From Brooklawnia propionicigenes (GTDB taxonomy: Bacteria; Actinomycetota; Actinomycetes; Propionibacteriales; Propionibacteriaceae): a stretch of DNA of 64,000 nt. Shown one piece after another: positions 2,901 through 19,784 of this stretch (positions within the stretch are counted from its first letter, which is position 1; every line of letters begins with the position of its first letter). The stretch is from NCBI RefSeq assembly GCF_030297015.1, contig NZ_AP028056.1, positions 1,746,939 to 1,810,938 of the forward strand, given 5' to 3'. The translations under genes were made by a program, and so were the position numbers. The notes below the pieces were generated by a model that was not told where the DNA came from, made no database searches, and saw only the letters and a list, made by a program, of their open reading frames with translations.

Positions 2901-3283
2901 GCCCGGGGCCGTGCCCGATCTGCGGGCGGGAGATGGGCAAGTCCAGCAAGGAGTTCTGCGGCCGCTGCACCCAGGGCACCGACCGTGTCCGTGGCGCATG
3001 CTCGGCCTGCGGCAAGCCCGACCGGGTCCTCGACCACCACCGGGTCTGCAAATGGTGCCGCAGGTACAGCCGGCGCCAATGCGTCGACTGCGGACGCACG
3101 CCCAACCAGGCACGCACCATCGGGCCCACCCAGCTGTGCGACCACTGCACCCTTCGCCGCGCGCTCGACCACATCATCCCCGCCCAGCCCGCCGGCCTCC
3201 TCGCACCGCTGCGACCAGTCATCCTCGCCGCCGAGCCCCTCACCACCCGCCGGTGGCTGGCCCGCCACGCCGACCTGCTCACC

Positions 3284-3286
3284 GCC
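3284..3286. repeat. 3-bp target duplication of IS3 copy 1 (GCC)
   Basis: GCC at 3284-3286 and again at 4588-4590 flank the IS3 element directly. Three bases is the usual IS3 duplication length. Confidence 0.8.
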
Positions 3287-3316
3287 TGGAGTGTTCCCGA
3301 TAAAGTGGATAGCTGT

Positions 3317-4201
3317 TTAGGCTGCGAGTTCAAGTATGTTTCTGTAGCCTAGCTCATATTCTTGCGGTGTCAAGTATCCGAGCGTTGAATGGCGACGAGT
3401 CTGGTTGTAGTATTCCTCAATCCAAGAAAACGTGTACTTCTTCAGAGTCTTGAGATCTGGCCAAGGCCGGGTATGGATGAGTTCCTTCTTGTAGGTCGCG
3501 AAGAACGATTCGGCGACCGCGTTATCGTAACAAATCCCGGTACGGCCCAATGATCGACGAATCTTGTGTTTCCGACAGTACTTAGCAAAATCCGTCGACG
3601 TATACTGCGTCCCACGGTCCGAATGAAAAATCACGCGTGTCCGAGGCCGACGATGAACCCGAGCCATATCCAAAGCATCAGTGACCAACGAGGTACGCAT
3701 ATGGTCATCGACAGCCCAACCCACCACCTTCCTGGAATACAGGTCGATCACCGTCGCCAGATAAGCCCAACCATTCCACGTCTTCACATACGTGATATCA
3801 CCACACCACTTCTCGTTCGGCCCCGACGCCTCGAACCTTCGACCGATCAGGTCCGGGGCCGGCACCGGATGCTCGCCAGCCACCGTGGTTCGCCGCCACG
3901 CCGCGGGATGACGGCCCTGGACACCCAGCGCCCGCATCAACCGCCACACCCGCTTGCGCGACACCCGGTGCCCGCCAGCAGCGAGCTCGGCATGAATGCG
4001 TCGGACCCCAGGCCGGCCCGGGCTGCTGGCATAAAAATGGCGAATCAATCCCATCAGCAGATCGTCTTGGTCGTGCCTGACCGAAACCCGATGACTCCGC
4101 CACTTGTAATAGCCCGAGGTCGACACCTGGAGTTCCCGACACATGAACACCACCGGATAAACACCCTGATCAGCCCAGTCCGCGATCGCAGCAAACTTCA
4201 C
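3317..4201 (-). CDS. IS3 transposase OrfB (DDE integrase core), copy 1
   Basis: This 294-residue protein contains the rve-type catalytic core. The first Asp is in GDITYVKTW, the second in FHSDRGTQYTS and the Glu in NAVAESFFATYKKE. The C-terminal SWIEEYYNQTRRHSTLGY block is typical of IS3 OrfB. Its GTG start overlaps the orfA stop by 4 bp. A run of seven T on the plus strand (4231-4237, A7 in the message) lies in the orfA end, and the orfB frame is open from there, so a -1 frameshift can make an OrfAB fusion transposase. Confidence 0.93.
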   Translation of the reverse strand: MKFAAIADWADQGVYPVVFMCRELQVSTSGYYKWRSHRVSVRHDQDDLLMGLIRHFYASSPGRPGVRRIHAELAAGGHRVSRKRVWRLMRALGVQGRHPAAWRRTTVAGEHPVPAPDLIGRRFEASGPNEKWCGDITYVKTWNGWAYLATVIDLYSRKVVGWAVDDHMRTSLVTDALDMARVHRRPRTRVIFHSDRGTQYTSTDFAKYCRKHKIRRSLGRTGICYDNAVAESFFATYKKELIHTRPWPDLKTLKKYTFSWIEEYYNQTRRHSTLGYLTPQEYELGYRNILELAA

Positions 4202-4518
4202 TGCTGGTCTTTCGCGAACCAGGTCGCCACTTTTTTTGCGAAACTGGCCTGCATCTGGAGATGAGCGTTTTCGTCCAGCAGCCTCTGGTAATCCGCGCGG
4301 AGCTGTTCGAGCTCGGCCCGTTCCGAGCGTGTCAAAGACTCGTCCGGGTCACGCTGCTCATCGCGCAAGTCTCGTTCTTTCTTCACCCATTTCCCTAACG
4401 TCTTCTCGAGGACGCCGATATTCCGTGCCGCCTCAGCGATCGACCGCCCATCATCCAACACCAACGCCACCGCGTTAGCTTTGTACTCCGCCGTGAAATG
4501 CCTCCGCGTAGATCCCAT
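4198..4518 (-). CDS. IS3 OrfA helix-turn-helix protein, copy 1
   Basis: This 106-residue HTH_Tnp_1-type protein has the N-terminal motif RRHFTAEYKANAVALVLDD and IAEAARNIGVLEKTLGKWVK, followed by a leucine-zipper-like stretch (ELEQLRADYQRLLDENAHLQ) that mediates multimerisation in IS3 elements. It binds the terminal repeats and, by -1 frameshifting at A7 near its 3' end, supplies the N-terminal part of OrfAB. Confidence 0.92.
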   Translation of the reverse strand: MGSTRRHFTAEYKANAVALVLDDGRSIAEAARNIGVLEKTLGKWVKKERDLRDEQRDPDESLTRSERAELEQLRADYQRLLDENAHLQMQASFAKKVATWFAKDQQ

Positions 4519-5649
4519 AATCAGCTCCCCTTCACCCTATCGGGAACCGCAAACCTCACCAGTGTCCACCAAACCGGGAACGGTCCAGCCCTCGACCAAG
4601 GCCGGACCAGCCTCGATCACGCCACCCTCGACACCCTCCCCCACCCCAAGGCGGTCGGGCATCTGCGCGCCCTGCTGATCAGTGCCGAGATCCTGACCCC
4701 CGACCCCACCGGGCCCATCCGGCGGCTCGAGAACAACCTCGATCAGCTGCTGGCCGAACTCGACCAGCCGCACCGCCGCATCATCGCCGGCTGGATCCGC
4801 TGGCAAGTGCTGCCGCCCCTGCGGCAACGCGCGGCCGATGGCCTCGAGCTGACCAACTCCGTCGCCAACGCCCGCAACCGGATCGAACGCACCATCGCCT
4901 TCCTGACCACCCTGCAAGCCCGCGGTCGGACCCTGAACAGCATCACCCAGCACGACATCGACGACTGGTTCGCCGGCCCCGGCGCCGCCCGCTGGAACAC
5001 CCGCCCCTTCCTCGCCTGGGCCCACAAACGCAAACACCTGCCCCAGCGAGTCCAGCTGCCCCCCGCCTCCTACATCGGGACCCGAACCGCGCCCGCCGAC
5101 CCCGAGGAACGCTGGACCACCGCGACCAGGCTCCTCACCGACGACACCCTCGACCCCGCCGATCGCGTCGCCGGCCTGCTCATCGTCCTCTACGCCCAAA
5201 CCCTCAGCCGCATCATCACCTTGACCCGCAGCGACATCACCAGCGACGGCGACGGCGTCCAACTTCGGCTCGGAGTCGACCCCATCGACCTGCCCGAACC
5301 GCTCGCGAGCCTGATCCAAACCCTGCCCATCAAACGACGCGAGGGCACCGCCGAGAACCTGCCCAACCCGTGGCTGTTCCCCGGTCAATGGGCCGGCACC
5401 CACATCCACGCAGTCAACCTCAGCGACCGCCTCCGCCGCATAGGCATCGAACCCCGCCGCATGCGCCTCGCCGCCGCCGAGCAACTCAGCCGCGAGATCC
5501 CACCCGCCATGCTCTCCGGCGTCCTCGGCCTGCGAACCGCAACCATCGCCAAACAGAGCAGCCAATCCGGCGGGAACTGGGCCAAATACGCCGGCGCCCG
5601 TGGCTGAACCCAGGTATTCACGGACTTCGAATATCTCTCTCCTGCCAGT

Positions 5650-6218: not shown

Positions 6219-7579
6219 GCGGGTGTGAGTCCGTTCGTGCGGAAGGTGAAGACCGCGTCGGGGGCGACAGCGGTCCAGATCGTCGAGAAACGCAACGGTC
6301 GCCGCAGGATCCTCGAGCATGTGGGCTCGGCTCACGACGAGACCGAGCTCGCGGTGCTGATGAGCGCCGCGCAGCAACGGGTCCATGGCGTCCAGGACGA
6401 GCTGCTGCTCGTGGAGCAGCCCAGACGGGAACCGGTCGGGCCGATCGTGGAGCACGCGTCGAGCGAGGTGCTGTGGCGGGTGCTGACCGACGCGTACGAA
6501 CAGCTGGGGTTCGACCAGATCAACGACGAAGTGTTCAAAGCGCTGGTCACAGCGCGGATCATCGAGCCGACCTCGAAGCAGGACACGCTGCGCGTGTTGG
6601 GTGACCTGGGTCGGCCGGTGCCACATGTGAATACCCTCTACAACTGTCTGCGGCGGTGCGTGGAGCGTGACTACCGCAGCCGGGTCGCCGCCTCCTGCTG
6701 GGCTCACGCGACCGCCCGGGGGCCGGTGGCGTTGGTGATGTATGACCTGACCACACTGCATTTCGAGGTGACCAACGAGGACCGGCTCCGGAAGGTCGGG
6801 ATGAGTAAGGAACGCCGCGTGGACCCGCAGGTCACCGTCGGGTTGCTGGTCACCGCGGGCGGGTTCCCGCTCGAGGTCGCCCTTTTCGAGGGCAACAAGG
6901 CAGAGACCAAGACCCTGATCCCGGTGATCGAGCAGTTCAAGACCCGCCACGGCATCAATGAGCTGGTGGTGGTCGCCGACGCCGGGATGCTGTCGGCGGA
7001 CAACCTCAACGGCCTCGAAGACGCCGGATGCCGCTTCATCGTCGCCTCCCGCCAGTCGCACGTGCCCTACGACCTGGGCGACCACTTCGAACGCCACGGC
7101 AACTACACCCCCGACGATTCGACGATCGAGACCACCCGCGACATGGGCACCGGCCGGCAGCGCCGCACCCGCCGAGTGGTGTATCACTACTCCTTCAAGC
7201 GCCACAAGCGAGACGACAAGACCATCAACGCCCAGGTCGTCAAGGCCGAGAAGGTCGCCGACGGGCTCCGCCCCGTCGCCCGGGACCGGTTCGTGACCGT
7301 CACCACCGACGCCGACGGGAAGAAGGCCGAGGTCAACTGGGACGTCATCGAACGGGCCAGGTTCTGCGCCGGGTTCAAGGGCTACGTCACCAACATCGGC
7401 GCCGACGTGATGGACGGCGCAGCAGTGGTCGCCGCCTACCGGGACCTGTGGCACGTCGAGGAGTCCTTCCGGATGGCCAAGGGAGACCTCCAAGCCAGAC
7501 CGATCTTCCACCGCAAACGCGAACCGATCGAGGCCCACCTCACCATCGTCTTCGCCGCGCTCGCGGTCGCCCGCCACCT

Positions 7580-7637
7580 CCAAGACCAGACCGGGGTCAG
7601 CATCAAGCGCCTCGTGCAGACCCTGCGACCCCTCCAG
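7580..7637 (+). repeat. 58-bp target duplication, left copy
   Basis: The 58 bases from CCAAGACCAGACC to GACCCCTCCAG are repeated exactly at 11442-11499. They flank element B on both sides and are part of transposase A. Long, variable target duplications are a known trait of the IS1634 group. Confidence 0.9.
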
Positions 7638-8891
7638 ACCCGACTTGGGCCATGACTCTCGGTTTCGGGGTTGATCATGGGAGTGGCTAGCTGCTTTGGT
7701 CTGGGGGTTGCGCACTAAGTGGTGGGGGTTTCAGGCTTGGTTTTGTGGCGTATGTGCGGACGGTGACCACGGGGTCGGGGGCGACGGCTGTCCAGATCGT
7801 GTGGAAGTCGGTGCGTGGGTCACGAGATATCGAACACATTGGCTCGGCGCGGGTTCCGGCCGAGGTCGAACTGTTGAAGGCAGCTGCCGTGCAGCGGATC
7901 GCTGCCGGGCAAGACCAGCTCCCCCTCGAAGACCCGGCCCTGGCGGTGGAGTCTGAGGTTGTGGTGGCCGGGATGCGGATGGGCCGGCTGCTGGATGCGA
8001 TCGCCGGTGTTTATCGGCAACTCGGCTTGGAGCGGGCCGCTGGCGGGGATCTGGTGTTCGAGCATTTGGTGACCGCGCGGATCATTGAACCGTCGTCGAA
8101 ACTGGACGCTGCCCGGGTTCTGGCTGAGGCCGGTATCCGGCCATTGTCGTATCGCACCGTGAAACGGCGGCTGCCTGTTTACGCCGAACCCGCGTTTCGT
8201 CACCGATTGTCAGGGGCTGTTTCAGCCAGGTCTGATCTGGGTCCTGCCGCCCTGGTTTTGTACGATGTGACGGTGCGCCATGAGGCGCTTGTTGTTCGAG
8301 TGGGGGTGAGAGACCTTCGCCTGATTCCCTGCCGTGGCAGGGGTTTGAAGCTGGGGGCAGCCTGACCTGGGGAGACGCCCGGGATGGGTGGGAGCAGCCC
8401 TGGCAAAGCCGTGACGCGTTAGCACTGTCGGATGGTGTGGGTGCGGCGAGCGTTGTCGAAGAGGTATACGCGAGGAACCGGTGTGAGTACCTGTCTTGAC
8501 GTATGAGCGTCTCGAACCCGATGGATCTGGGGCGGGCGCGGTGCGCCATCTGCGGGCGATTGTCGGTGGGTGGACTGCTGCGGGGTGGAGTAACGATCCC
8601 GTGGTGGGGCCAGCAGCGAATGACTACGGAGTAGGTGCTGGTGAGGCCGCAGGCAGATAGCCGGGTGCCTCCTTCGACCAGCGAACAGCAAGTGAACATG
8701 GGAAGGCCGTTCGGTCTGCCTGTCCGGGTGCGCGGCCAGCGTGCCCGGGATGGGTTGAGCACGTCGTCTGCTGATCGACCGGAAGGCTGGCGGAGCCGCC
8801 GTAGTACTCCGGGTCCGGGAGAGCCGGACACATGGGGAAGGGCGGCAGCGAGGTTGGATAGGAGGTGCTGTGATGGCGCAAGGATGCATCG

Positions 8892-10335
8892 GTGAACTCT
8901 GATGCCCCGACGCTGATGGAGATCATCGGCGCGCGGGTAGCGCGGACGCAGGTCAAGTATCACCGGTGGGCAAGGGCTGACCGCCAGGCGCGGTTCGGTG
9001 ACTTGTTCAATCTGGTGTCGCATACCAGCTACCTGCTGGTGGCTTGGGAGCATGTGGCACACAACAAAGGAGCCCGTACTGCTGGAGTTGATGGCCTCAC
9101 GGTGCGTCAACTCGTTCAGCAGGGCGGGGTCGGGGCGTTTCTGGCAGGGATCGCCGCGAGCTTGAAAGACGGCACGTACCGGCCTTGCCCGGTGCGCCGG
9201 GTGCTGATCCCCAAACCGGGCGGCAAGTCGCGGCCGTTGGGGATCCCGACGCTGGCCGACAGGGTCGTGCAGCAGTCTTTGAAGATGGTGCTGGAACCGA
9301 TCTTCGAGGCCGACTTTGTGCCGGTCTCCTACGGGTTCAGGCCGAAGCGGCGCGCTCATGACGCGGTCGCTGAGATCCATTACTACGCCACGCGCGGGTA
9401 TCGGTGGGTGGTGGACGCAGACATCGCAGGATGTTTCGACCATATCGACCACACCGCGCTACTCGCACGAGTCCGTGAACGGATCAAGGACAAACAGGTC
9501 ATGGCGTTGGTGCGGGCATTCCTCAAAGCCGGAGTTCTTGACGAACTCGGCCGCGAGGCCGCCACCATCGAAGGAACACCCCAAGGCGGGATCATCTCGC
9601 CGCTGCTGGCCAATATTTGCGTTGTCCGTGCTGGACGAAGCGATCATGGCCCCGTGGGCCGAAGGCGGCGATCAGTCCACCCAGGCTGCTCGCGCTAAAC
9701 GCCGCTATCACGGGAAGGCCAACTGGCGGATCGTGCGCTACGCCGACGATTTCGTCATCATGACCAACGGCAGCGGCCAAGACGCCGCCCAGTTGAAAGA
9801 ACACGCCGCCAAGGTGCTGGCAACGGTCGGGCTCACGTTGTCCGAGTCCAAGACCCGCGTCGCGCACCTCAGCGAGGGAATCGATTTCCTCGGCTTCCAC
9901 ATCCAATGGAAGAAACGACGAGGAGACCGGAAATGGTTCTGCATGGTCTTCATCGCCGACAAGGCATTCACCAAGATCAAACAGACCATCCGTGCGTTGA
10001 CTCCCCGCCGGTCCCCACGACCACTCACCGACGTGATCAACGAGGTCAACGCGGCATTGCGAGGCTGGACGTACTACTTCCGCCACGCGCTCGCCGGACG
10101 ACGGTTCTCCTTCCTCAGGTATTTCACCTGGCGAAGATTCGTCGCCTGGCAACGCGAGCAACACCGCTGGGGCTGGAAAGGGGTGAAACGATGGCTCCGC
10201 CGCCCCAACGGCAGCTGGAACACCATCACCACCCCGGCAGCGGTCCTCTTCGATCCCACCAAGGTACGCATCGAGCGCTACCGGTATCGAGGCAACCGCA
10301 TCCCCAACCCCTACGACCTCACGATCACCGCGTGA
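8892..10335 (+). pseudogene. ltrA: Group II intron reverse transcriptase/maturase, frameshifted
   Basis: Codons from GTG 8892 encode RT blocks including GVDGLTV, RRVLIPKPGGKSRPLGIPT, SYGFRPKRRAHDAV and EGTPQGGIISPLLANI. Then an extra T in the TTT at 9616-9618 shifts the frame. The other frame continues ALSVLDEAI, IVRYADDFVIMT (active-site YADD), LGFHIQWKKRRG and the maturase X domain to 10335. Removing one T restores about 481 residues. Either the intron has lost its own maturase or this base is a sequencing error. No HNH (En) domain is evident after the X domain. Confidence 0.85.
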
Positions 10336-10355
10336 ACCGGCATCAACCTCGTGGA

Positions 10356-10389
10356 GAGCCCGTTGCGTTGAAAGGCGCACGGCGGGTTC
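10356..10389 (+). ncRNA. Group II intron domain V
   Basis: The 34-nt hairpin begins GAGCCCGTTGCG, has the GAAA tetraloop and ends GGCGGGTTC, with the conserved bulge on its 3' side. This is the catalytic core helix of the ribozyme. A domain VI-like stem-loop follows to about 10445. Confidence 0.8.
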
Positions 10390-11441
10390 GGCGGGCGGCC
10401 CGGGGAAACGGAACAGCGGTAACGCTGTCACCGCGCCCCGCGCCGACCCACCACGTTATGGTTCGAGACTGATACCGGTGACGGGTTCCGTGAGCCCGGC
10501 TTCAGCAAGGAGCGCCGGTTGGAGCCGCAGATCACGGTCGGGTTGTTGACCGATGCGACCGGTGCCCCGTTGATGATTGAAGCGTTCGAAGGGAACCGGG
10601 CCGAAACCAAGACGATGATCCCGCTGATCCGGGGGTTCGTGGAGGCCCACGGGATCGCTGATGTGGTCGTGGTCGCCGATGCCGGCATGATGAGCGAGCA
10701 GAACCTGAAAGATATCGAGGATGCCGGCTGGTCGTTCATCGTGGGCGGGAAGATTCCCGAGATCCCGTACGCGATCAGCCAGTGGCGCAAACAGCATCCG
10801 GACGCTGAGCCGCCCGATCAGCTCGTGCTGTCACAAAAACAGGTGATGGGTGTCAAGGCCGATACCCGGCATCGGAGCGTGTATTTCCAGTACCGGGCCG
10901 ATCGGGCCCGCCGTACCCTGCACGGTGTCGACCAGCAACTCACGAAAGCCGCGAACGCGGTCGCGGGGAAGACCCCGGTGAAACGCAACCGGTTCATCAC
11001 CTTGTCCGGGGCACGTCCGTCGATCAACCGGGAACTGGAGGCCAAAGTGAAAGCCCTGGCCGGCTGGAAATCGTATGTCACCAATCTCGACAAGCCGGCC
11101 GAGTTCGTGATCGGCGCGTATCACCAGTTGTGGCATGTCGAACACGCGTTCCGGATGTCCAAAAGCGATTTGAAAGCCCGCCCGGTCTACCACCATAAGA
11201 AGGAATCGATCGACGCTCACCTGGCCGTCGTGTTCGCGGCGCTGGCCGTCAGCCACCACATCGAACAAGCCACCGGATGGACCATCAAACGCTTCGTGCG
11301 TACCTTCCGCCAATACCGCGACGTCACCCTCACCCTCGCCGGCCAGACCATCACCGCCAGCCAACCCATCCCCGCCGACGAAGCCGACATCCTCGCCAAG
11401 ATCAACAACTCAGATGCGCACTAAATTGGCCCAAGTCGGGT

Positions 11442-11499
11442 CCAAGACCAGACCGGGGTCAGCATCAAGCGCCTCGTGCAGACCCTGCGACCCCTCCAG
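11442..11499 (+). repeat. 58-bp target duplication, right copy
   Basis: An exact repeat of 7580-7637. After it, the transposase A frame continues to its stop at 11604. Confidence 0.9.
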
Positions 11500-11635
11500 A
11501 GCGTCACGATCACCATCACAGGCCAGCCCATCCAGGCCCAACCACGCCTCACCCCCGAAGCCGAAGCCATCCTCACCAAGATCCCTGGCCGAGCGGGGCA
11601 CTAAATCAGGCCCGAATTGTTGAACTCAGGCCCGA

Positions 11636-12061
11636 CTACGCCGAAATCGGTCTTGCGTCGGATCTCGAGCCGCATCGCGGCCTCCTGTCATCGGCCAGAC
11701 AGCCAGTCACCCGCATAACGGATGCAGACTGCTGCCGGTGGACAGCCTTGGACACCTTCGGGCGAAGACCCCTGCATGCAATCAGCGCCGACCGGCACCA
11801 ACAGAAGGTTCCAGTGTCCACGGCGTGACGGCCGACGCCACCCCTCCGCGCGCTTGCCGTCAGGCAACTGCGTAGTCCCACGACCACCGCCCAGCCAGGA
11901 GCACATGTGGGCCGCCGGCAAGGAGAGAGTTCGGATCAACACACAGCCGAGCCTAAGGAAATCGACGCAACGGTTGCCTTTAAGCCCCCGACTGCACGGG
12001 CGTCCCCCGAGCGAGGGCCCCATCGAGCACGCTTCCGAACGGGCCCCAGCAATCGCGATAC
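11636..12061. other. Gap between IS1634 and the SDR operon
   Basis: No open frame here has family features or a good ribosome site. It holds mixed-composition DNA downstream of the minus-strand operon. No convincing terminator, tRNA or repeat was found by eye. Confidence 0.4.
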
Positions 12062-12874
12062 TTATACCCCGATGTATCCCCGCCCCGTCGGGCGAATGGA
12101 AATAGTCTTCACTGTGGCCCTGGTTGAAAGAGCAAACGAGACAGCGGCGACAATGTCGGACAAGGGAATCGCAGCCTCAGGCACAGAATACCCCGCTGCG
12201 GCCACCTCATCGTCCGTGGCGTCCAAGGTAAGAAATGTAGGTTCGCCAGCGGTATCGAGGGCAGCACTTGCGATGACACCCGGGTAGACAGCTGTCACTC
12301 GCACATCCTGCTGAATCTCCAAAGCGGAAGCAAGCCCAGTGAGGGCATACTTAGCAGAGACGTACGGCTCAGACCCCACTGCACCTCCTTCTGACTCGCC
12401 ATAAAGAAGGACATTGTGCTGAGGGAGCCCCCAGTCCGCGACAATAAAGACCAGTTGAGAGCCCCGCTTCCTTAGAAGGCTGGGAAGGCATGTTTGCACG
12501 GTCAGATGCGCAAGAATAACGCTGTTCGAAAGAAACTCGACGAGCTCCTCTTGAGTGATGTCGGCGATGCTCTTCCCCTCGTCCTCACCGATGTGCCCAA
12601 AGGCGGCGTGCACAAGGTAGTCCAAGCCGTCGGGGGCGGATGCCTCTATGGCCGATCGCAAGAGCGTCTGACCTTCGCGGGTGCTCAGATCAGCCGAGAG
12701 CGTTAGTAGTTTGCCTGTCCCGACGCTGGCGGGGGTCGCATCACGCAAGTCGGCCAGTCGCTCTACGGAGCGGCCGACTGCAATAACCGAATCCCCATGA
12801 GCAAGCCTCTCGGCAACGATAGCGCCACCGACTCCAGACGTCGCCCCGCTAATCAGTCCAATACGATCACGCAT
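12062..12874 (-). CDS. Short-chain dehydrogenase/reductase (SDR), atypical
   Basis: This 270-residue Rossmann-fold protein begins MRDRIGLISGATSGVGG. The nucleotide-binding TGxxxGxG-like motif is at residues 10-17, and the YxxxK pair is Tyr171/Lys175 in EPYVSAKYALTG. The catalytic Ser usually seen before the Tyr is not at its normal place (LVFIVADWG), so activity may be altered. The ATG at 12874 follows AAGGGCGAGGACAA, 13 bp after the previous stop. It is the last gene of the four-gene operon and probably reduces or oxidises the product of the upstream enzymes (inference). Confidence 0.75.
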   Translation of the reverse strand: MRDRIGLISGATSGVGGAIVAERLAHGDSVIAVGRSVERLADLRDATPASVGTGKLLTLSADLSTREGQTLLRSAIEASAPDGLDYLVHAAFGHIGEDEGKSIADITQEELVEFLSNSVILAHLTVQTCLPSLLRKRGSQLVFIVADWGLPQHNVLLYGESEGGAVGSEPYVSAKYALTGLASALEIQQDVRVTAVYPGVIASAALDTAGEPTFLTLDATDDEVAAAGYSVPEAAIPLSDIVAAVSFALSTRATVKTISIRPTGRGYIGV

Positions 12875-12890
12875 TTGTCCTCGCCCTTCA

Positions 12891-13646
12891 TCAAGATCCC
12901 TCGACAACCATACCAGTCCGCCGCGCGCCGCGCGGTTGATGCGCATCCGCACGGCTCAACTGACCAATCAGAGCGTCGATGAGATTATCCCCCACGCGCG
13001 CCTGCCATCGACCGTCTGCCTTACTCAGAGGTAATCCCATGTAAGCGATTCTTGGGCCCCCCGCATCAACAGCATACGGATTGTAGATGACGAAATCAAA
13101 ATCCTGAACCAAGAAGAAGAACTCATCACTCAAGAAATTGACATGCACAAGCGCGCTCTGATTGTGTCGGCGGCGCAACTGCTCTGCGCGCGAACGCATC
13201 ACGGCCGTGTCGGGGATAAAGAAGTGATACTCGATGCCCCGAGTCAAATTCTCCCTCACCACTCTACTGAACGGTGCGTCGATGATGTCTTCCGAAAGAT
13301 CCGGGGAAATGAGCCAAATTTCTCTAGCTTTAGTCTGACTCTCGAATGCGACCAACTGCTCGGTCGCAATCAACCACGAAAGCGCCTCCGGTACCGGCGC
13401 CTGTCTCGCCTCGATGACAGCCAGAGTTTCTTGAACGTCTCCAGAAATCCGCCTTCCGATACTATGGAAAGCCAAGAAGGAAGTTAACGAATAGAGAATG
13501 AGGACCGTCAGCAAGGAGACTATCATGGTCAGATAGCCAAACTTCGTTTGGAACTCGGCAAGAACAACCGAGAACAGGACGGTTAGGACCGTAATCACCA
13601 CCACCGACAGACCCTGATCAGTGGCCCACTCGCGAAGCCTATTCAT
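12891..13646 (-). CDS. Two-TM protein with a soluble C-terminal domain, function unknown
   Basis: This 251-residue protein has two hydrophobic helices near residues 13-30 and 37-60 (VVVITVLTVLFSVVLAEF; YLTMIVSLLTVLILYSLTSF), then about 180 soluble residues. The soluble part has alternating strands (AREIWLISPDLSED, GIEYHFFIPDTAVM, ALVHVNFLSDEFFFLVQDFD), vaguely like a phospholipase D-like or nucleotide-sensing alpha/beta domain, but no HKD motif is present. The start overlaps the radical SAM stop (ATGAATAG), so the two are translated together. I do not recognise the family. It could anchor or transport the operon's product, or sense it at the membrane. Confidence 0.65.
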   Translation of the reverse strand: MNRLREWATDQGLSVVVITVLTVLFSVVLAEFQTKFGYLTMIVSLLTVLILYSLTSFLAFHSIGRRISGDVQETLAVIEARQAPVPEALSWLIATEQLVAFESQTKAREIWLISPDLSEDIIDAPFSRVVRENLTRGIEYHFFIPDTAVMRSRAEQLRRRHNQSALVHVNFLSDEFFFLVQDFDFVIYNPYAVDAGGPRIAYMGLPLSKADGRWQARVGDNLIDALIGQLSRADAHQPRGARRTGMVVEGS

Positions 13647-15180
13647 GGCGGCTTCCGAGTGGACTTGTCCACACTGCAGGCTTCTCCGGCACGGGCAGCA
13701 GTCCCGCCCGCGAGGCTAAGCTCACGCCTGCATCCGTTATCGGAGTGCATGTCACTGGGATGCGCAATGACTCTCGCTGGGTTGACAAGTACTTGATGAC
13801 TGCAGACCGAGCGGCCTTCGGAACCCCAGGCAATGTGGCAATGACTTCGACGTGAATGGCTTCTGGTGCGCTCTCCGCACCGACCTGCACGTCATCATCG
13901 GACAGATGCGCCAGTGAGGAGACCCCCGGTTCACTTATCAGTCTCTGCAAACCCGAACGCGTGAGCGGCACTGTCGCGGCGTACCCGACAACGTCCCCAA
14001 ATGAATCCTTCCACACAGTGAAGATTTCCGGCATAAGCCCCCACCAGTGCTCAAGGTCCGTCAACGAGAACTTGTCAACATAATGCGGAAAGCACGCCCA
14101 CTCAATACGCAAGATGTCCTGCAGTTCGGACACCCCAGCCACTGAAGGTCGAAAGTCTTCCGGTGCCGCTCCCTTGGTCGGGATATATCGGGCTAGATAG
14201 TCGTTTCGTTCGACGCCAGCGCTGCAGGAAAGGGAGCAGCCGCCCCTGCACTCATCGACCAGATGGCAGCGCGCGCAACTCGCCGACAGATGCTGTAGCT
14301 GACGGAACGACGCCAATTGCGCGCTAGTAGCCCAGATGTCGTCCACGCTCTTCAGCAGCACGTTGCCCAGGTTGTAGGCTGTCGTCGCGCCGCACCGTGT
14401 GAGATTGCCGCTGGCGTCGAGGGAACCGTGGGTTGAACCCCACACACAAGGCTTCAGGTACTTATGAAATCTTGATGGCACCGTGCAGTACGGAAAGGCA
14501 TCTTCACAGCTAACGGCAATCCCATAGTCGCTGGAGAGTCGCTCGATATCTTCGAACAGACGTAGAACGTCATTGTGCGAAAGGGTGTAACGGGCCGAGT
14601 CGCGCGCCCTTCCACTCGGGATGATCCGCTGAATCAGCACGTGGTCGACGGGTAGCGCGTGGCCATTCTTGAGGGCGGCGATTGTTTCGTAGAGGCGGGC
14701 AGCGCTCTCGGGGATGGCATTGTAGGCAACCCCGATGGATTTCCCGGAATTTGCTACCCTCTGGAGGTTACCGACGACGCGATTGAAGGCGCCATCCGAG
14801 CCAGCGAATGCATCGTGAACTTCCGACGTTGGCCCGTGGATAGTTGTTTCGAAGACGTCAACGAGCCGTGCTCCCATCAGGGGATCACGCTCTAGGTAGG
14901 CATGAGTGTTGGAGAGAATCAGAGTCTGGAGGCCGACCTCGTGTGCGCGAGCGCAGAGCCGTAGAATCTCGGGGTGCTCGGCAGGATCCCCTCCCAGAAA
15001 TATCACCTCCTTGACAGATGTACCGGCGAGCGAATCGAGCACTCTCAGGAGTTGGCTGGTTTCCGCGTGAGGCGCCTGGTCCCCAGCCGAGAAGTAGCAC
15101 ATGGGGCAGGCGTGGGCGCAGAATTGGGTGACATGCAGTGCCACCGATACTGGCCCCTGCGTACGCGTATCAAGGCTCAC
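13639..15180 (-). CDS. Radical SAM/SPASM protein fused to a GNAT-like domain
   Basis: This 513-residue protein has the radical SAM motif CAHACPMC (Cys21, Cys25, Cys28), which binds the SAM-cleaving 4Fe-4S cluster. A GGDP motif is at residues 63-66. A Cys-rich SPASM/Twitch region (Cys245, 263, 302, 305, 311, 315, 319; ...CHLVDECRGGCSLSC) should carry auxiliary clusters. From about residue 350 there is a GNAT-like domain (SELQDILRIEWACFPHYVD, DVVGYAATVPLTRSG, IHVEVIATLPG). SPASM proteins usually modify peptides or small substrates; no precursor peptide is visible nearby. GTG 15180 overlaps the decarboxylase gene by 11 bp. Codon use is less GC-rich than in flanking genes. Confidence 0.85.
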   Translation of the reverse strand: MSLDTRTQGPVSVALHVTQFCAHACPMCYFSAGDQAPHAETSQLLRVLDSLAGTSVKEVIFLGGDPAEHPEILRLCARAHEVGLQTLILSNTHAYLERDPLMGARLVDVFETTIHGPTSEVHDAFAGSDGAFNRVVGNLQRVANSGKSIGVAYNAIPESAARLYETIAALKNGHALPVDHVLIQRIIPSGRARDSARYTLSHNDVLRLFEDIERLSSDYGIAVSCEDAFPYCTVPSRFHKYLKPCVWGSTHGSLDASGNLTRCGATTAYNLGNVLLKSVDDIWATSAQLASFRQLQHLSASCARCHLVDECRGGCSLSCSAGVERNDYLARYIPTKGAAPEDFRPSVAGVSELQDILRIEWACFPHYVDKFSLTDLEHWWGLMPEIFTVWKDSFGDVVGYAATVPLTRSGLQRLISEPGVSSLAHLSDDDVQVGAESAPEAIHVEVIATLPGVPKAARSAVIKYLSTQRESLRIPVTCTPITDAGVSLASRAGLLPVPEKPAVWTSPLGSRHE

Positions 15181-15688
15181 GGGGGACCTCCACGAATTCG
15201 TTAAGGGAATTCGCGCTGAGCCAGCCGAACGGGGCGATGACCAAGGCGCAGGCGTGACGACCGGGCATGCTCTGTATGGAGGCGGTCACGCATTTCGGCT
15301 CGTCATATACACGCCCATCTCCCTCTATCATGTCCAGTAGGGATCGCATAGCGGAGGTCTCTGCCTCGTATGGGTAGGTGCAGGGCTCGCTTTCCGCGAA
15401 GTAGCCTCCTCCTGAACTGCTCACTACGTGGGCAAGGCTCGCAGCGGCGGAGCATCCTTCGTCTGACACCGCGATGCTGTACACGGCTGGGATGATGGCC
15501 CCAGGCGGGAACATCCCAACCGGGACCTGCTGACTCTGTGTCACATTCCAGCCGCGCGGTATTACAGAACTCAGCCTGACGAGATTTGCCTCTGCCATGC
15601 CAACCGCGCGCAGGGCTGCGTGAAATGCCGCCAGTTTGGTTGCGCCGTGAGCGGATCCCGAGAGGCACTGCGTCATCCTGGTATGCAC
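15170..15688 (-). CDS. Pyruvoyl-dependent arginine decarboxylase-like protein
   Basis: This 172-residue protein matches the PvlArgDC family in length and order of blocks: GSAHGATKLAAFHAAL, then AVGMAEANLVRLSSVIPRG. Ser40-Ser41 corresponds to the self-cleavage site that makes the pyruvoyl group. GAIIPAVYSIAVSDEG and YFAESEP follow; Glu99 aligns with the proton-donor Glu of the archaeal enzyme. Family members convert arginine to agmatine, but the substrate here is not proven. The GTG start at 15688 has GGAGGA six bases upstream. It is the first gene of the operon. An IS21-family element lies 139 bp upstream and may have separated it from its original promoter. Confidence 0.82.
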   Translation of the reverse strand: MHTRMTQCLSGSAHGATKLAAFHAALRAVGMAEANLVRLSSVIPRGWNVTQSQQVPVGMFPPGAIIPAVYSIAVSDEGCSAAASLAHVVSSSGGGYFAESEPCTYPYEAETSAMRSLLDMIEGDGRVYDEPKCVTASIQSMPGRHACALVIAPFGWLSANSLNEFVEVPREP

Positions 15689-15820
15689 AGGTGTTCCTCC
15701 CGAGTGTCTGCCAGCGTGTTCCGAGGTCGCACTGAAACGCGACGACCGCTGCGTGCGACGTTAGCAGTTGATCGATGCCCGACAGAGGTGTCGTCGATCG
15801 TGAGACGCCGACAGACCAGC

Positions 15821-15826
15821 AGTGGG
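15821..15826. repeat. 6-bp target duplication of the IS21 element (AGTGGG)
   Basis: AGTGGG directly precedes the left TGTC end and is repeated at 19779-19784 right after the right end. Confidence 0.8.
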
Positions 15827-16166
15827 TGTCAAGGGCCACTGGTTTCTGCCCGGAGGCGGACATGAAACCTGCCCGGTGGCGGTCACGAGAAGTGCCCGGT
15901 GGTGGCCATGGGATCTGCCCCTGGGGGGTTGTTGGCCATCCACCTCGGTCGAGGCTGGGTTAGTGCAAGGGGGTCACCCCCCGGCCGGCGAGGGCTTGGG
16001 TGAGTCGGACGCTGTCGCCGCTGGTTTGGCAGACGTGGGCGTGGTGAAGGAGCCGGTCGACGGTGGCGGTGGCCAGGGTTTTGGGCATGAGTTCGTCTGG
16101 ACCGTTCCCGGTTTGGTGGACACTGGTGAGGTTTGCGGTTCCCGATAGGGTGAAGGGGAGCTGATT

Positions 16167-16487
16167 ATGGGATCTACGCGGAGGCATTTCACGGCGGAGT
16201 ACAAAGCTAACGCGGTGGCGTTGGTGTTGGATGATGGGCGGTCGATCGCTGAGGCGGCACGGAATATCGGCGTCCTCGAGAAGACGTTAGGGAAATGGGT
16301 GAAGAAAGAACGAGACTTGCGCGATGAGCAGCGTGACCCGGACGAGTCTTTGACACGCTCGGAACGGGCCGAGCTCGAACAGCTCCGCGCGGATTACCAG
16401 AGGCTGCTGGACGAAAACGCTCATCTCCAGATGCAGGCCAGTTTCGCAAAAAAAGTGGCGACCTGGTTCGCGAAAGACCAGCAGTGA
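16167..16487 (+). CDS. IS3 OrfA helix-turn-helix protein, copy 2
   Basis: The 106-residue sequence is the same as copy 1 OrfA. The A7 slippery run is at 16448-16454, and the orfB frame is open from there, consistent with programmed -1 frameshifting to OrfAB. Confidence 0.92.
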   Translation: MGSTRRHFTAEYKANAVALVLDDGRSIAEAARNIGVLEKTLGKWVKKERDLRDEQRDPDESLTRSERAELEQLRADYQRLLDENAHLQMQASFAKKVATWFAKDQQ

Positions 16488-17368
16488 AGTTTGCTGCGAT
16501 CGCGGACTGGGCTGATCAGGGTGTTTATCCGGTGGTGTTCATGTGTCGGGAACTCCAGGTGTCGACCTCGGGCTATTACAAGTGGCGGAGTCATCGGGTT
16601 TCGGTCAGGCACGACCAAGACGATCTGCTGATGGGATTGATTCGCCATTTTTATGCCAGCAGCCCGGGCCGGCCTGGGGTCCGACGCATTCATGCCGAGC
16701 TCGCTGCTGGCGGGCACCGGGTGTCGCGCAAGCGGGTGTGGCGGTTGATGCGGGCGCTGGGTGTCCAGGGCCGTCATCCCGCGGCGTGGCGGCGAACCAC
16801 GGTGGCTGGCGAGCATCCGGTGCCGGCCCCGGACCTGATCGGTCGAAGGTTCGAGGCGTCGGGGCCGAACGAGAAGTGGTGTGGTGATATCACGTATGTG
16901 AAGACGTGGAATGGTTGGGCTTATCTGGCGACGGTGATCGACCTGTATTCCAGGAAGGTGGTGGGTTGGGCTGTCGATGACCATATGCGTACCTCGTTGG
17001 TCACTGATGCTTTGGATATGGCTCGGGTTCATCGTCGGCCTCGGACACGCGTGATTTTTCATTCGGACCGTGGGACGCAGTATACGTCGACGGATTTTGC
17101 TAAGTACTGTCGGAAACACAAGATTCGTCGATCATTGGGCCGTACCGGGATTTGTTACGATAACGCGGTCGCCGAATCGTTCTTCGCGACCTACAAGAAG
17201 GAACTCATCCATACCCGGCCTTGGCCAGATCTCAAGACTCTGAAGAAGTACACGTTTTCTTGGATTGAGGAATACTACAACCAGACTCGTCGCCATTCAA
17301 CGCTCGGATACTTGACACCGCAAGAATATGAGCTAGGCTACAGAAACATACTTGAACTCGCAGCCTAA
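16484..17368 (+). CDS. IS3 transposase OrfB (DDE integrase core), copy 2
   Basis: This 294-residue DDE transposase is the same as copy 1 OrfB, with Asp in GDITYV, Asp in HSDRGTQY and Glu in AVAESFF. The GTG start overlaps the orfA stop (GTGA). It should be functional and able to act on both copies. Confidence 0.93.
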   Translation: MKFAAIADWADQGVYPVVFMCRELQVSTSGYYKWRSHRVSVRHDQDDLLMGLIRHFYASSPGRPGVRRIHAELAAGGHRVSRKRVWRLMRALGVQGRHPAAWRRTTVAGEHPVPAPDLIGRRFEASGPNEKWCGDITYVKTWNGWAYLATVIDLYSRKVVGWAVDDHMRTSLVTDALDMARVHRRPRTRVIFHSDRGTQYTSTDFAKYCRKHKIRRSLGRTGICYDNAVAESFFATYKKELIHTRPWPDLKTLKKYTFSWIEEYYNQTRRHSTLGYLTPQEYELGYRNILELAA

Positions 17369-18057
17369 ACAGCTATCCACTTTATCGGGAACACTCCAGT
17401 CGAAGCCGGCGGGGTGCAGGTTGGAGCTGATCGCGACGGAGCGTTTCTCGTAGGCGGCGTCGACCAAGCGGTAGAGGCCCTCGGCGGCGTCGTGGGACAC
17501 GGGTAGCAGGCCGATGTCGTCGACGACGACCAGGTCGGCGCGCAGGATCCGGGCGATGGCTTTCGACACGGTGTCGTCGGCGCGGTGCCGGCGTAGCAGC
17601 AGGCCGAGGTCTTCGAGGGTGAACCAGGCGACGCGCAGTCCTTGTTCGACGGCGTGTTGGCCCAGTGCTTCGAGGAAGAACGTCTTCCCGGTGCCGGAGG
17701 GGCCGCAGACGACGAGGTTCTCCCGCCGGCCGACCCATTCCAGGGTCCGGAGTGCTTGTTGGGTGGGGGCCGGGATCGATGAGGCGGTCGGCTGCCAGGC
17801 GTCGAAGGTTTTGCCGGTGGGGAACCCGGCCGCGGTGCGGCGGGTGGCCAGCGCGGAGCGTTCACGGCCGGTGACCTCCTCGACGAGGAGGGCTTTGACG
17901 ACTTCGGCGGGCTCCCAGCGTTGCGCTCGGGCGGTGGCGAGGATGTCAGGTGCTGCGGTGCGCATGTGGGGCAACCGCATCCGGCGCAGCAGCGCTTCCA
18001 GGTCGGCCGGTAGCGGCGGGGCGACCGGAACCCCAGCCACCGGGGCGCTCTGGCCGG

Positions 18058-19626
18058 TCATGAGGCGATCTCCTCAGGGGTGGTGGTGCCGTAGGTGGCC
18101 CAGCCGCGGGTGCCCTGGGTCAGGGACTTGTCCTCGCTGGCCTGCAGCTGTTGGGGGTGGGGTCGGCTGCGGTGGTGGTCGAGGATCGAGGCCAGATCGG
18201 CCTCGGCGAAGCGGCCGTGGACCGCGGCATGTCCCAAGGCCCAGTCGACGTCGGCGGGGTTGAACAGACGCGCGAGCTGGACCGCGGCGGCCATCTTGAC
18301 CCGCATCTTCCCGGTGCCCGCGTGAGCGGCCTCGACCAGCCAGAGACGGGCCCCTTCCCCCAAAGCCAGGAACTCGCTGTCCGCGACCGTCCGGGGTGTC
18401 GGGGTCCGTTCCAGGGCGCCTGCCGGTGCGGGCGGGAAATGCTGCCCGTCGAGCATCGGGGTGCCGGGGGTGGCGCGTCGGTGGCGGGCGACCTCGACCG
18501 GGCCCGCGTCGGTGAGGTGGCAGATCACGATCTGCTCATCCGCGCCGCGGCCGTGGACCCGGACCCAGACCGTGGCCCCGCAGAGCCGGTGAGGGACGGA
18601 GTACTGGCCGTGTTCGAAGTTCACCATCGGCGTGTTGACCGGAACCACCCTCGTGGTCCCGAACGCGACCGTGAACGGCGCCGCCGCGACAGGATGCAAC
18701 CGGAGACGTTCCTCGGCCAACATCTCGACCGGGGCCCGACGTGTCACCCGATGCGGGCGACTGTTCACCATTTCACCAAACGCTTCGCAGGCTGCTTCCA
18801 GGTCGGCGAACGAGTCATAGGCGTCGCGCAGGTTCGCCTCCGTGGGCACCAGGTCGGCCTTCGCGAGCTTCACCGATGATTCGGTGCCGCCCTTGCTCGC
18901 CGGGTCCGCCGGGACACATGTGTGAACGGTCACCGCATAGTGCGAGGCGAACGCGACCAGTTGTGGGTTCCGGACCGGGATCCCGGCGATGTGCTCGCTA
19001 GTGACGGTCTTCTCGTTGTCGGTCAACACATACGTCGGGACCCCACCGATCCGGCGGAACGTCACATCCAGGGCGGCGAACACCGAGGGCAGGGTCTTGT
19101 CCCGCAGCGGCAGCACCACCCGGAACCTCGACCACGCGACCCAGGCCACGAACAGGACCGTCTTGACCCCATCGATCAACGGCCCGTCGCCGTAGTCGTA
19201 CTGCAACCACATCCCCGGCTCGGTCACCCACGGCCGATGGACCCTGCGGTTCCCGACCCGGAACGCGGCCTTCGCGGCCGCGACCGCGCGGCGGGTGGTG
19301 CGCTCCGAGCCGGTGAACCCCAGCCACACCAGCTTCTGGTGGACCCTGTCGGCGCGGACCTTCCCCTTCGACCGCTCGACCCACTCCTCGACCTTGTCCA
19401 GGTAGTCATCGATCAGCTGAGGCCGGCGGGCCGTCCCCGACGGCGGGCCACCCAGCTTGTCGCGGGCCTCCACATAGCGTTTCACCGTGTGATGAGAACA
19501 CCCCACCAACTCGGCAGAATCACGCAACGACCCAGTCAGATCGTAAGCATCCAAGATTTCCATGATTTCCTCGGCAGACTTCAAGATGTCCCTTCCCCGG
19601 GTGACGAACAGTGCTTCAGCACCACT
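18058..19626 (-). CDS. istA: IstA-type transposase (IS21 family)
   Basis: With ATG 19626 it is 522 residues; an alternative ATG at 19695 would add 23. It has an N-terminal HTH (AEEIMEILDAYDLTGSLRDS, CSHHTVKRYV) and a DDE integrase core: MWLQYDYGDGPLIDG (Asp), VLTDNEKTVT (Asp) and SKGGTESSVKLAKAD (Glu). A C-terminal beta-rich Mu-type domain follows (MVNFEHGQYSVPHRLCGATV). The stop overlaps istB (ATGA). It looks intact, but its partner IstB is broken. Confidence 0.92.
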   Translation of the reverse strand, partial: SGAEALFVTRGRDILKSAEEIMEILDAYDLTGSLRDSAELVGCSHHTVKRYVEARDKLGGPPSGTARRPQLIDDYLDKVEEWVERSKGKVRADRVHQKLVWLGFTGSERTTRRAVAAAKAAFRVGNRRVHRPWVTEPGMWLQYDYGDGPLIDGVKTVLFVAWVAWSRFRVVLPLRDKTLPSVFAALDVTFRRIGGVPTYVLTDNEKTVTSEHIAGIPVRNPQLVAFASHYAVTVHTCVPADPASKGGTESSVKLAKADLVPTEANLRDAYDSFADLEAACEAFGEMVNSRPHRVTRRAPVEMLAEERLRLHPVAAAPFTVAFGTTRVVPVNTPMVNFEHGQYSVPHRLCGATVWVRVHGRGADEQIVICHLTDAGPVEVARHRRATPGTPMLDGQHFPPAPAGALERTPTPRTVADSEFLALGEGARLWLVEAAHAGTGKMRVKMAAAVQLARLFNPADVDWALGHAAVHGRFAEADLASILDHHRSRPHPQQLQASEDKSLTQGTRGWATYGTTTPEEIAS

Positions 19627-19784
19627 CATCGCACTCGAGGAAGGGACGCCGACCGCGGACGCGGCCAGGCAACGGATGTCGTGTCGGGCAGATCCCATGG
19701 CCACCACCGGGCAGATTTCATGACCGCCAGCGGGCAACTACATGACCGTCACTGGGCATTTTGCCGTGTCCGCCGACAAGTGGG

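Follow-up and report, generated by a model that had tools for sequence, protein, structure and literature searches.

The window analysed here is a stretch of 64,000 nucleotides from the genome of Brooklawnia propionicigenes (3.2 Mb in one contig, NZ_AP028056.1). At positions 12062-15688 it carries an operon of four tightly packed minus-strand genes, in which a pyruvoyl decarboxylase-like protein of the PvlArgDC family (P0001) is joined to a radical S-adenosylmethionine (radical SAM) protein with a SPASM domain (P0002), an orphan membrane protein (P0003) and a short-chain dehydrogenase/reductase (SDR)-like protein (P0004). We tentatively interpret this operon, at a probability of about 0.42, as an acquired small-metabolite cassette, whose pathway would lead from P0001 through radical SAM chemistry.

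The genes occupy positions 15170-15688 (P0001, 172 residues), 13639-15180 (P0002, 513 residues), 12891-13646 (P0003, 251 residues) and 12062-12874 (P0004, 270 residues), according to the list of open reading frames (ORFs) and the sequence itself. The frames of P0001 and P0002 overlap by 11 bp and those of P0002 and P0003 by 8 bp, whereas P0003 and P0004 are 16 bp apart, provided that the SDR gene starts with the ATG at 12874; these coordinates and spacings agree with an earlier annotation of the window (the original prediction). P0002 begins with a GTG codon, which is preceded in the sequence by a GGAGG stretch. The operon genes are not chance ORFs, because PvlArgDC, Radical_SAM, SPASM and adh_short all pass the Pfam cut-offs, and the four-gene minus-strand operon is real.

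In the proposed pathway, P0001 would most likely cleave itself between Ser40 and Ser41, yielding chains of 40 and 132 residues, and would decarboxylate an amino acid or an amino-acid-like substrate to an amine. P0002, presumably co-translated with P0001, may alter the substrate or the product by radical SAM chemistry, P0004 may perform a reduction or an oxidation, and P0003 may anchor, transport or sense at the membrane. That P0001 cleaves itself, that these reactions exist and follow this order, and all of the substrates are predictions.

Sequence features of the four proteins

P0001 matches Pfam family PF01862 with an E-value of 2.4e-20 and 73.5 bits (cut-off 22.7). In an alignment to chain 1n2m of the Methanocaldococcus jannaschii pyruvoyl-dependent arginine decarboxylase (a mutant with Ala at position 53; residue numbering counted by hand), Ser40-Ser41, Asn35 and Glu99 of P0001 fall on positions 52-53, 47 and 109. 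The Ser-Ser cleavage site and the conserved Glu of the original prediction thus coincide with Ser52-Ser53 and Glu109 of the archaeal enzyme. Both features are general in the family. We aligned P0001 with 112 relatives (113 of 148 loci were submitted and one, too short or unmatched, was dropped; two places are represented twice, as L013/L150 and L026/L104). Ser-Ser occurs in 110 of these 113 proteins, P0001 included, and Thr-Ser in the other three, and the catalytic Glu is present in all 113. The position of Asp35, a residue of arginine decarboxylase with a role in substrate binding, is more variable: Asp occupies it in 96 of the proteins and His in 17, among them P0001 (His23). Other His-type proteins are those of loci L075, L076, L077, L080, L083-L088, L090, L105, L106, L109, L114 and L129.

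Like the M. jannaschii enzyme (1n2m, 1mt1), P0001 therefore belongs to PF01862 and has the Ser-Ser pair and the counterparts of Asn47 and Glu109; unlike that enzyme, it has His23 in place of Asp35, misses the equivalog cut-offs and forms part of a radical SAM operon. It could be argued that P0001 is simply an ordinary arginine decarboxylase which makes agmatine for polyamines, with neighbours that are incidental, since PF01862 and TIGR00286 are its best families. We regard this as very improbable: P0001 scores 58.9 bits against the equivalog cut-off of 106.95 for TIGR00286 and 28.5 against 207 for NF009064, it carries His at the Asp35 position, and its frame overlaps that of P0002. As it lies under both equivalog cut-offs, we do not call P0001 an arginine decarboxylase. 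The involvement of arginine and agmatine in the original prediction consequently finds no support, and the product is probably not plain agmatine.

The best-scoring relative of P0001 is a Friedmanniella protein (L078; 37% identity), which has in common with it the His as well as a Gly-Trp that follows the cleavage site. In a first tree P0001 grouped with the His-type proteins (support 98/98), on a very long branch of 2.67 changes per site. Its placement beside the archaeal-type proteins was not rejected by the approximately unbiased test (p 0.381), and in a quick tree made without the His column P0001 joined these proteins, which form the other long branch. In view of the branch length, the test and the second tree, we dropped the claim that P0001 descends from the His clade.

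P0002 matches Radical_SAM (5.7e-12) and SPASM (2.4e-6) above the Pfam cut-offs. A motif scan located CX3CX2C at C21-C28, the SPASM-type CX12GX4C at C245-C263 and CX2CX5CX3C at C302-C315, together with C319; CX3CX2C with such a cysteine pattern is the signature of radical SAM/SPASM enzymes. The Pfam matches and the motifs both bear out the original assignment of P0002 to this group, and the iron-sulfur cysteines are retained. The nearest solved chains are those of PqqE, DesII and SkfB. The 25 best-scoring of 54 NCBIfam families include only one whose cut-off P0002 passes, the SPASM domain model TIGR04085 (31.3 versus 27 bits). Thus, P0002 shares the radical SAM core and the SPASM cysteines with PqqE, MftC, SkfB and NirJ/AhbD, but it reaches no equivalog cut-off in that set (NirJ2, AhbD, MftC, PqqE, StsB and others).

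These neighbours suggest another role for P0002, namely that of a maturase for a ribosomally synthesised and post-translationally modified peptide (RiPP), with a precursor encoded elsewhere and the remaining genes modifying or exporting the peptide. The SPASM domain, the several peptide maturases among the sub-threshold NCBIfam neighbours and the presence of SkfB among the solved relatives are in keeping with such a role. However, the best neighbours also include heme, pyrroloquinoline quinone and sugar enzymes, no plausible precursor ORF was recognised upstream of the operon (15600-16150), and an amino acid decarboxylase is, to our knowledge, not a usual RiPP gene. We therefore find a peptide product rather improbable.

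The C-terminal region of P0002 (residues 321-513, window positions 13642-14220, minus strand) had been described as a GNAT-like domain, and this description was not confirmed. The region has no Pfam match up to E=1, and its single-sequence model (mean predicted local distance difference test score, pLDDT, of 39.6) has no structural match with E<=0.001. Comparisons with hidden Markov models of the partner GNAT family introduced below, of the second domain of its long tandem members and of the GNATs of the same genome, including hhalign comparisons, were null or weak. In the profile comparison 22, 31 and 34 of 300 shuffled sequences scored as high as the region itself; the own-genome GNAT profile also misses the partner GNAT family, so that it has little power. 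The succession of strands and helices looks GNAT-like by eye, which we did not count as a test, and the region could be a far relative of the partner GNAT.

P0003 contains two N-terminal hydrophobic segments, at residues 12-30 and 42-60, followed by a soluble C-terminal part, in accordance with the two transmembrane (TM) segments originally assigned to it. It is otherwise an orphan, with no Pfam match to E=1 and no PHROG match to E=0.1; a SLATT_4 match over its first 60 residues (E=0.18, 11.6 bits versus a cut-off of 55) was discarded as no evidence. P0004 matches adh_short (PF00106) above the Pfam cut-off (E 2.7e-15), and a motif scan shows that it keeps both the SDR Gly motif, SGATSGVG, and the YxxxK motif, YVSAK, so that its identification as an SDR stands. 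An anti-phage defence system was also considered and is not supported: P0001, P0003 and P0004 have no PADLOC match to E=1, and the matches of P0002 to PADLOC viperin models (best 1.5e-9) are confined to residues 12-97 in the radical SAM core.

Genomic setting and occurrence of the gene set

The operon looks acquired, because of its lower G+C content, its flanking insertion sequences (IS) and the lack of a match in a second genome of the species. The G+C content is 0.553-0.627 in the four 1-kb steps over the operon, and three of these have lower values than any other of the window's 64 steps. Third-position G+C in the operon is 0.61-0.69, compared with 0.85 and 0.91 in two nearby genes, and it is equally low (0.65) in an adjoining IS3-type ORF. 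Upstream, an IS21-like element (15870-19736), named by eye from its istA/istB-like ORFs and delimited by 51-nt inverted repeats (90% identity), starts 181 bp from the P0001 gene. Its istB-like gene is split by an IS3-type element, also named by eye (16097-17402, plus strand), which is a 1306-nt inverted repeat, 100% identical to 3283-4588. Downstream of the operon, an apparent IS transposase fragment contains a 60-nt direct repeat (11441-11500, plus strand) of 7579-7638.

The conspecific draft assembly G753 (50 contigs) was used for comparison; 40 of 186 candidates were scored. A 20-kb query gave a list of 20 matches, none of them between window positions 11747 and 16096, the interval with the operon. 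A 41-bp match covers 11706-11746, and longer matches lie in IS sequence on either side of the operon. A stretch at 8261-11440 is 98% identical in G753. The draft also has no PF01862 match. The original view that lower G+C and flanking transposons mark an acquisition accords with all of these observations.

With 11.5 kb between them and opposite orientations, the two IS3-type copies could invert the operon-bearing segment or make it mobile. We rejected a composite transposon made of these two copies: since the right copy sits inside an IS21-like element that has its own ends, independent IS3 insertion is the simpler explanation. Farther downstream (7745-11424), a transposase gene is, by eye, seemingly interrupted by a group II intron, with a reverse-transcriptase ORF split between frames.

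The recurrence of the four genes in unrelated genomes, on which the original prediction had staked its pathway, was not observed in our samples, which are not exhaustive. No relatives of P0002, P0003 or P0004 were found by tblastn (E<=0.01) in 148 PvlArgDC-like loci; these were fetched with flanks whose upper limit varied from 1.5 to 10 kb (<=1.5 kb in 47 of them), and several represent the same place with wider flanks. The same was true, at E<=0.001, of a set of 80 loci selected by the motif NL[VI]RLSS[VM]IP (the best 80 of 91), 41 of which are named Nocardia by hand count, so that the loci are far from independent. P0001 relatives occur in 18 of 396 genomes of the phylum, its own included, and no fetched locus has relatives of P0002-P0004. 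Conversely, P0002 was matched with E<=1e-10 in five of 57 genomes of relatives, one of them its own, and the other four matches (L004-L007) all lie within residues 8-317. P0003 in 394 genomes of the class, and the P0002 C-terminal region in 356 genomes of the phylum, each gave only the match to itself. A pattern scan of genome contigs for P0002 produced 91 pattern matches, none confirmed; none of 126 plasmid records had a place covering 80% of P0002; P0001 and P0003 had no plasmid match; and no match of P0001, P0002 or P0003 in viral contigs was confirmed. Single-sequence pattern scans of this kind detect no more than close relatives, and the sampled sets of genomes overlap, so that a more distant copy may exist.

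Several observations weigh against a working pathway. P0001 may have lost its function, as its long branch could indicate; in P0004 the usual SDR catalytic Ser, found about 13 residues before the Tyr, is missing, with a Tyr there instead, although a longer loop may shift the Ser; and the samples searched gave no second copy of the four-gene set that would speak for selection on it as a whole. The operon could be decaying cargo between IS elements, now without function. The closeness of the IS21-like sequence to the first gene, the lack of a recognisable promoter (one weak consensus match versus 1.4 expected), the P0001 branch and the absence of another copy are all compatible with decay. On the other hand, all four frames are open with their overlaps intact, and the catalytic residues and iron-sulfur cysteines are kept. 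Codon-position G+C is uninformative on whether the genes are live or decaying, since the opposite strand gave similar values in P0003, where this was tried. On balance, we hold decay to be decidedly doubtful and continue to prefer an acquired cassette for a small metabolite.

GNAT-fold partners and membrane sensors of related decarboxylase-like proteins

PF01862 matches are present in 43 of 391 genomes of the order, including that of the window. In all 30 of the order loci that were fetched (the best-scoring of 44 match rows), a protein of about 190 residues is encoded within 1.5 kb. For three such proteins that were scanned, Pfam gave nothing up to E=0.1, and none of the NCBIfam matches was significant. 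An AlphaFold2 model built from 20 sequences has a mean pLDDT of 86.4 and matches 51 solved chains with E<=0.001 in Foldseek; the 50 listed are nearly all acetyltransferases, and VIA-align gave Z scores of up to 13.1. Judged by this model, the partner is a GNAT-fold family.

Among the 80 motif-selected loci, the partner GNAT is present in 60: in 57 it immediately follows the decarboxylase gene on the same strand, at a distance of -6 to 105 nt, and in three (L078, L088 and L144) it is otherwise placed. The 20 loci without it comprise seven of Thermaceae/Thermococcus, seven of Actinoplanes, one of Micromonospora, three of Saccharibacteria or unassigned origin, L143 and L150. Eight of the His-type loci (L080, L083-L087, L090 and L106; one Micromonospora, seven Actinoplanes) lack the partner in the fetched flanks, some of which are shortened by contig ends. 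Some other His-type partners are long and have a second domain (L075:5673-7001, L076:6205-7596 and L088:8350-9858), with a Pfam Acetyltransf_1 match in L088. In the tree, the PvlArgDC-like proteins of L141, L152 and L157 (Saccharibacteria) group with those of Acidimicrobiia, where not all branches are firm, and L157 matches the partner GNAT family in three pieces. In the window's genome, a search made without a positive control gave no match to the partner GNAT at E<=1. The idea that the decarboxylase is teamed with a GNAT therefore describes a real theme among its relatives, which stops short of the supposed GNAT part of the P0002 fusion.

The frequent adjacency of the two genes is consistent with the partners being activators rather than pathway enzymes. 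PanD is an aspartate decarboxylase and is not a member of PF01862. Its zymogen depends for activation on the GNAT-fold protein PanZ, which binds it with acetyl-coenzyme A (CoA) or CoA (PMC4410942). Like PanD with PanZ/PanM, the recurring pairs team a pyruvoyl decarboxylase with a GNAT-fold protein; for the window this remains an analogy only. By this precedent the GNAT partner, and perhaps the C-terminus of P0002, would mature and regulate the decarboxylase, and the position of the usual partner directly after the decarboxylase gene agrees with it. Nevertheless, a GNAT fold of the P0002 C-terminus was not demonstrated, and the eight His-type loci have no such GNAT in their fetched flanks. Archaeal PvlArgDC, moreover, cleaves unaided, and we consider such an activator role unlikely. 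P0001 relatives beside a GNAT-fold protein would suit amine-processing or CoA-regulated decarboxylases.

Many of the loci also encode a membrane sensor. By BLAST clustering, a membrane-GGDEF protein is found in 46 of the 80 loci and a hybrid histidine kinase in 11, and one or the other lies within 1.5 kb of the decarboxylase gene in 56. Pfam identified GGDEF in both of the GGDEF-cluster proteins scanned, and EAL as well in one; two kinase-cluster proteins were also scanned. In the scanned proteins, the N-terminal region of about 330 residues has no significant Pfam name. It contains 7-9 hydrophobic segments in five of the six proteins that we looked at, and five in that of L144. Of the 11 kinases in the cluster, a profile of the GGDEF-type N-terminus finds four (best E-value 3.1e-14, the composition bias being high) and not the other seven; one of the latter, the Friedmanniella kinase, is missed by phmmer and hmmsearch and reaches 95% in hhalign. 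Over the 1217 genes called in the loci, the profile has 53 matches, corresponding to the 46 GGDEF proteins, four kinases and three further proteins from L143, L144 and L150.

At the genome level, five of six cassette-bearing genomes have one sensor copy and the sixth has four, and in all six, by arithmetic on coordinates, one copy sits at the cassette. On the basis of the shared profile and of these coordinates, the sensor is linked to the pair in Nocardiaceae, Micromonosporaceae, Nocardioidaceae and Propionibacteriaceae, although its outputs vary. Examples of such cassettes, which combine a PvlArgDC-like protein and its GNAT-fold partner with a multi-TM sensor whose fused output part is either a hybrid histidine kinase or GGDEF(-EAL), are L079, L099, L104, L107, L109, L127, L129 and L151, among others. 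The search that finds the sensor in the six genomes, all of them cassette-bearing, finds none at E<=1e-5 in the window's genome. As neither the partner GNAT nor the sensor is matched there, we do not count the window operon among these cassettes. Like the actinobacterial cassettes (Nocardia, Microlunatus, Planosporangium, Nocardioidaceae), it has a PvlArgDC-family protein in tightly packed genes; unlike them, it has a radical SAM/SPASM protein, a 2-TM protein and an SDR in place of the GNAT and the sensor.

Proposed function and significance

The recurring cassette may be a signalling module that has not been described before, or else an activator pair of the PanD/PanZ kind. An acyl-amine would result if decarboxylation were followed by N-acylation, and a role as a signal would fit the membrane sensor encoded next to the synthase. 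Extended to the window, this would mean that PvlArgDC-like/GNAT pairs of Actinomycetota make an (acyl)amine signal which the adjacent sensor, of about eight TM segments, reads and to which it responds by a histidine-kinase phosphorelay or by cyclic di-GMP turnover according to lineage, and that the window operon is a mobile, receptor-less offshoot in which the radical SAM protein and the SDR divert the amine to another product. As a whole, we judge this extended scheme unlikely.

The original prediction is supported in part. The decarboxylase/GNAT theme and the acquired look favour it, whereas its four-gene pathway is not supported by its own test of recurrence within the samples searched, nothing points to arginine or agmatine, and the GNAT domain of P0002 was not confirmed. 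Our literature search, which mostly did not cover subscription journals, found no description of the operon or of the PvlArgDC/GNAT/sensor cassette, and nothing relevant on a pyruvoyl decarboxylase paired with radical SAM chemistry.

The operon, provided that it is active, would couple radical SAM chemistry with a pyruvoyl decarboxylase. The more testable proposal concerns the decarboxylase-GNAT pair, which several families of actinobacteria combine with one common sensor region whose output parts are exchanged. In these cassettes, gene order alone predicts a new ligand and its receptor.

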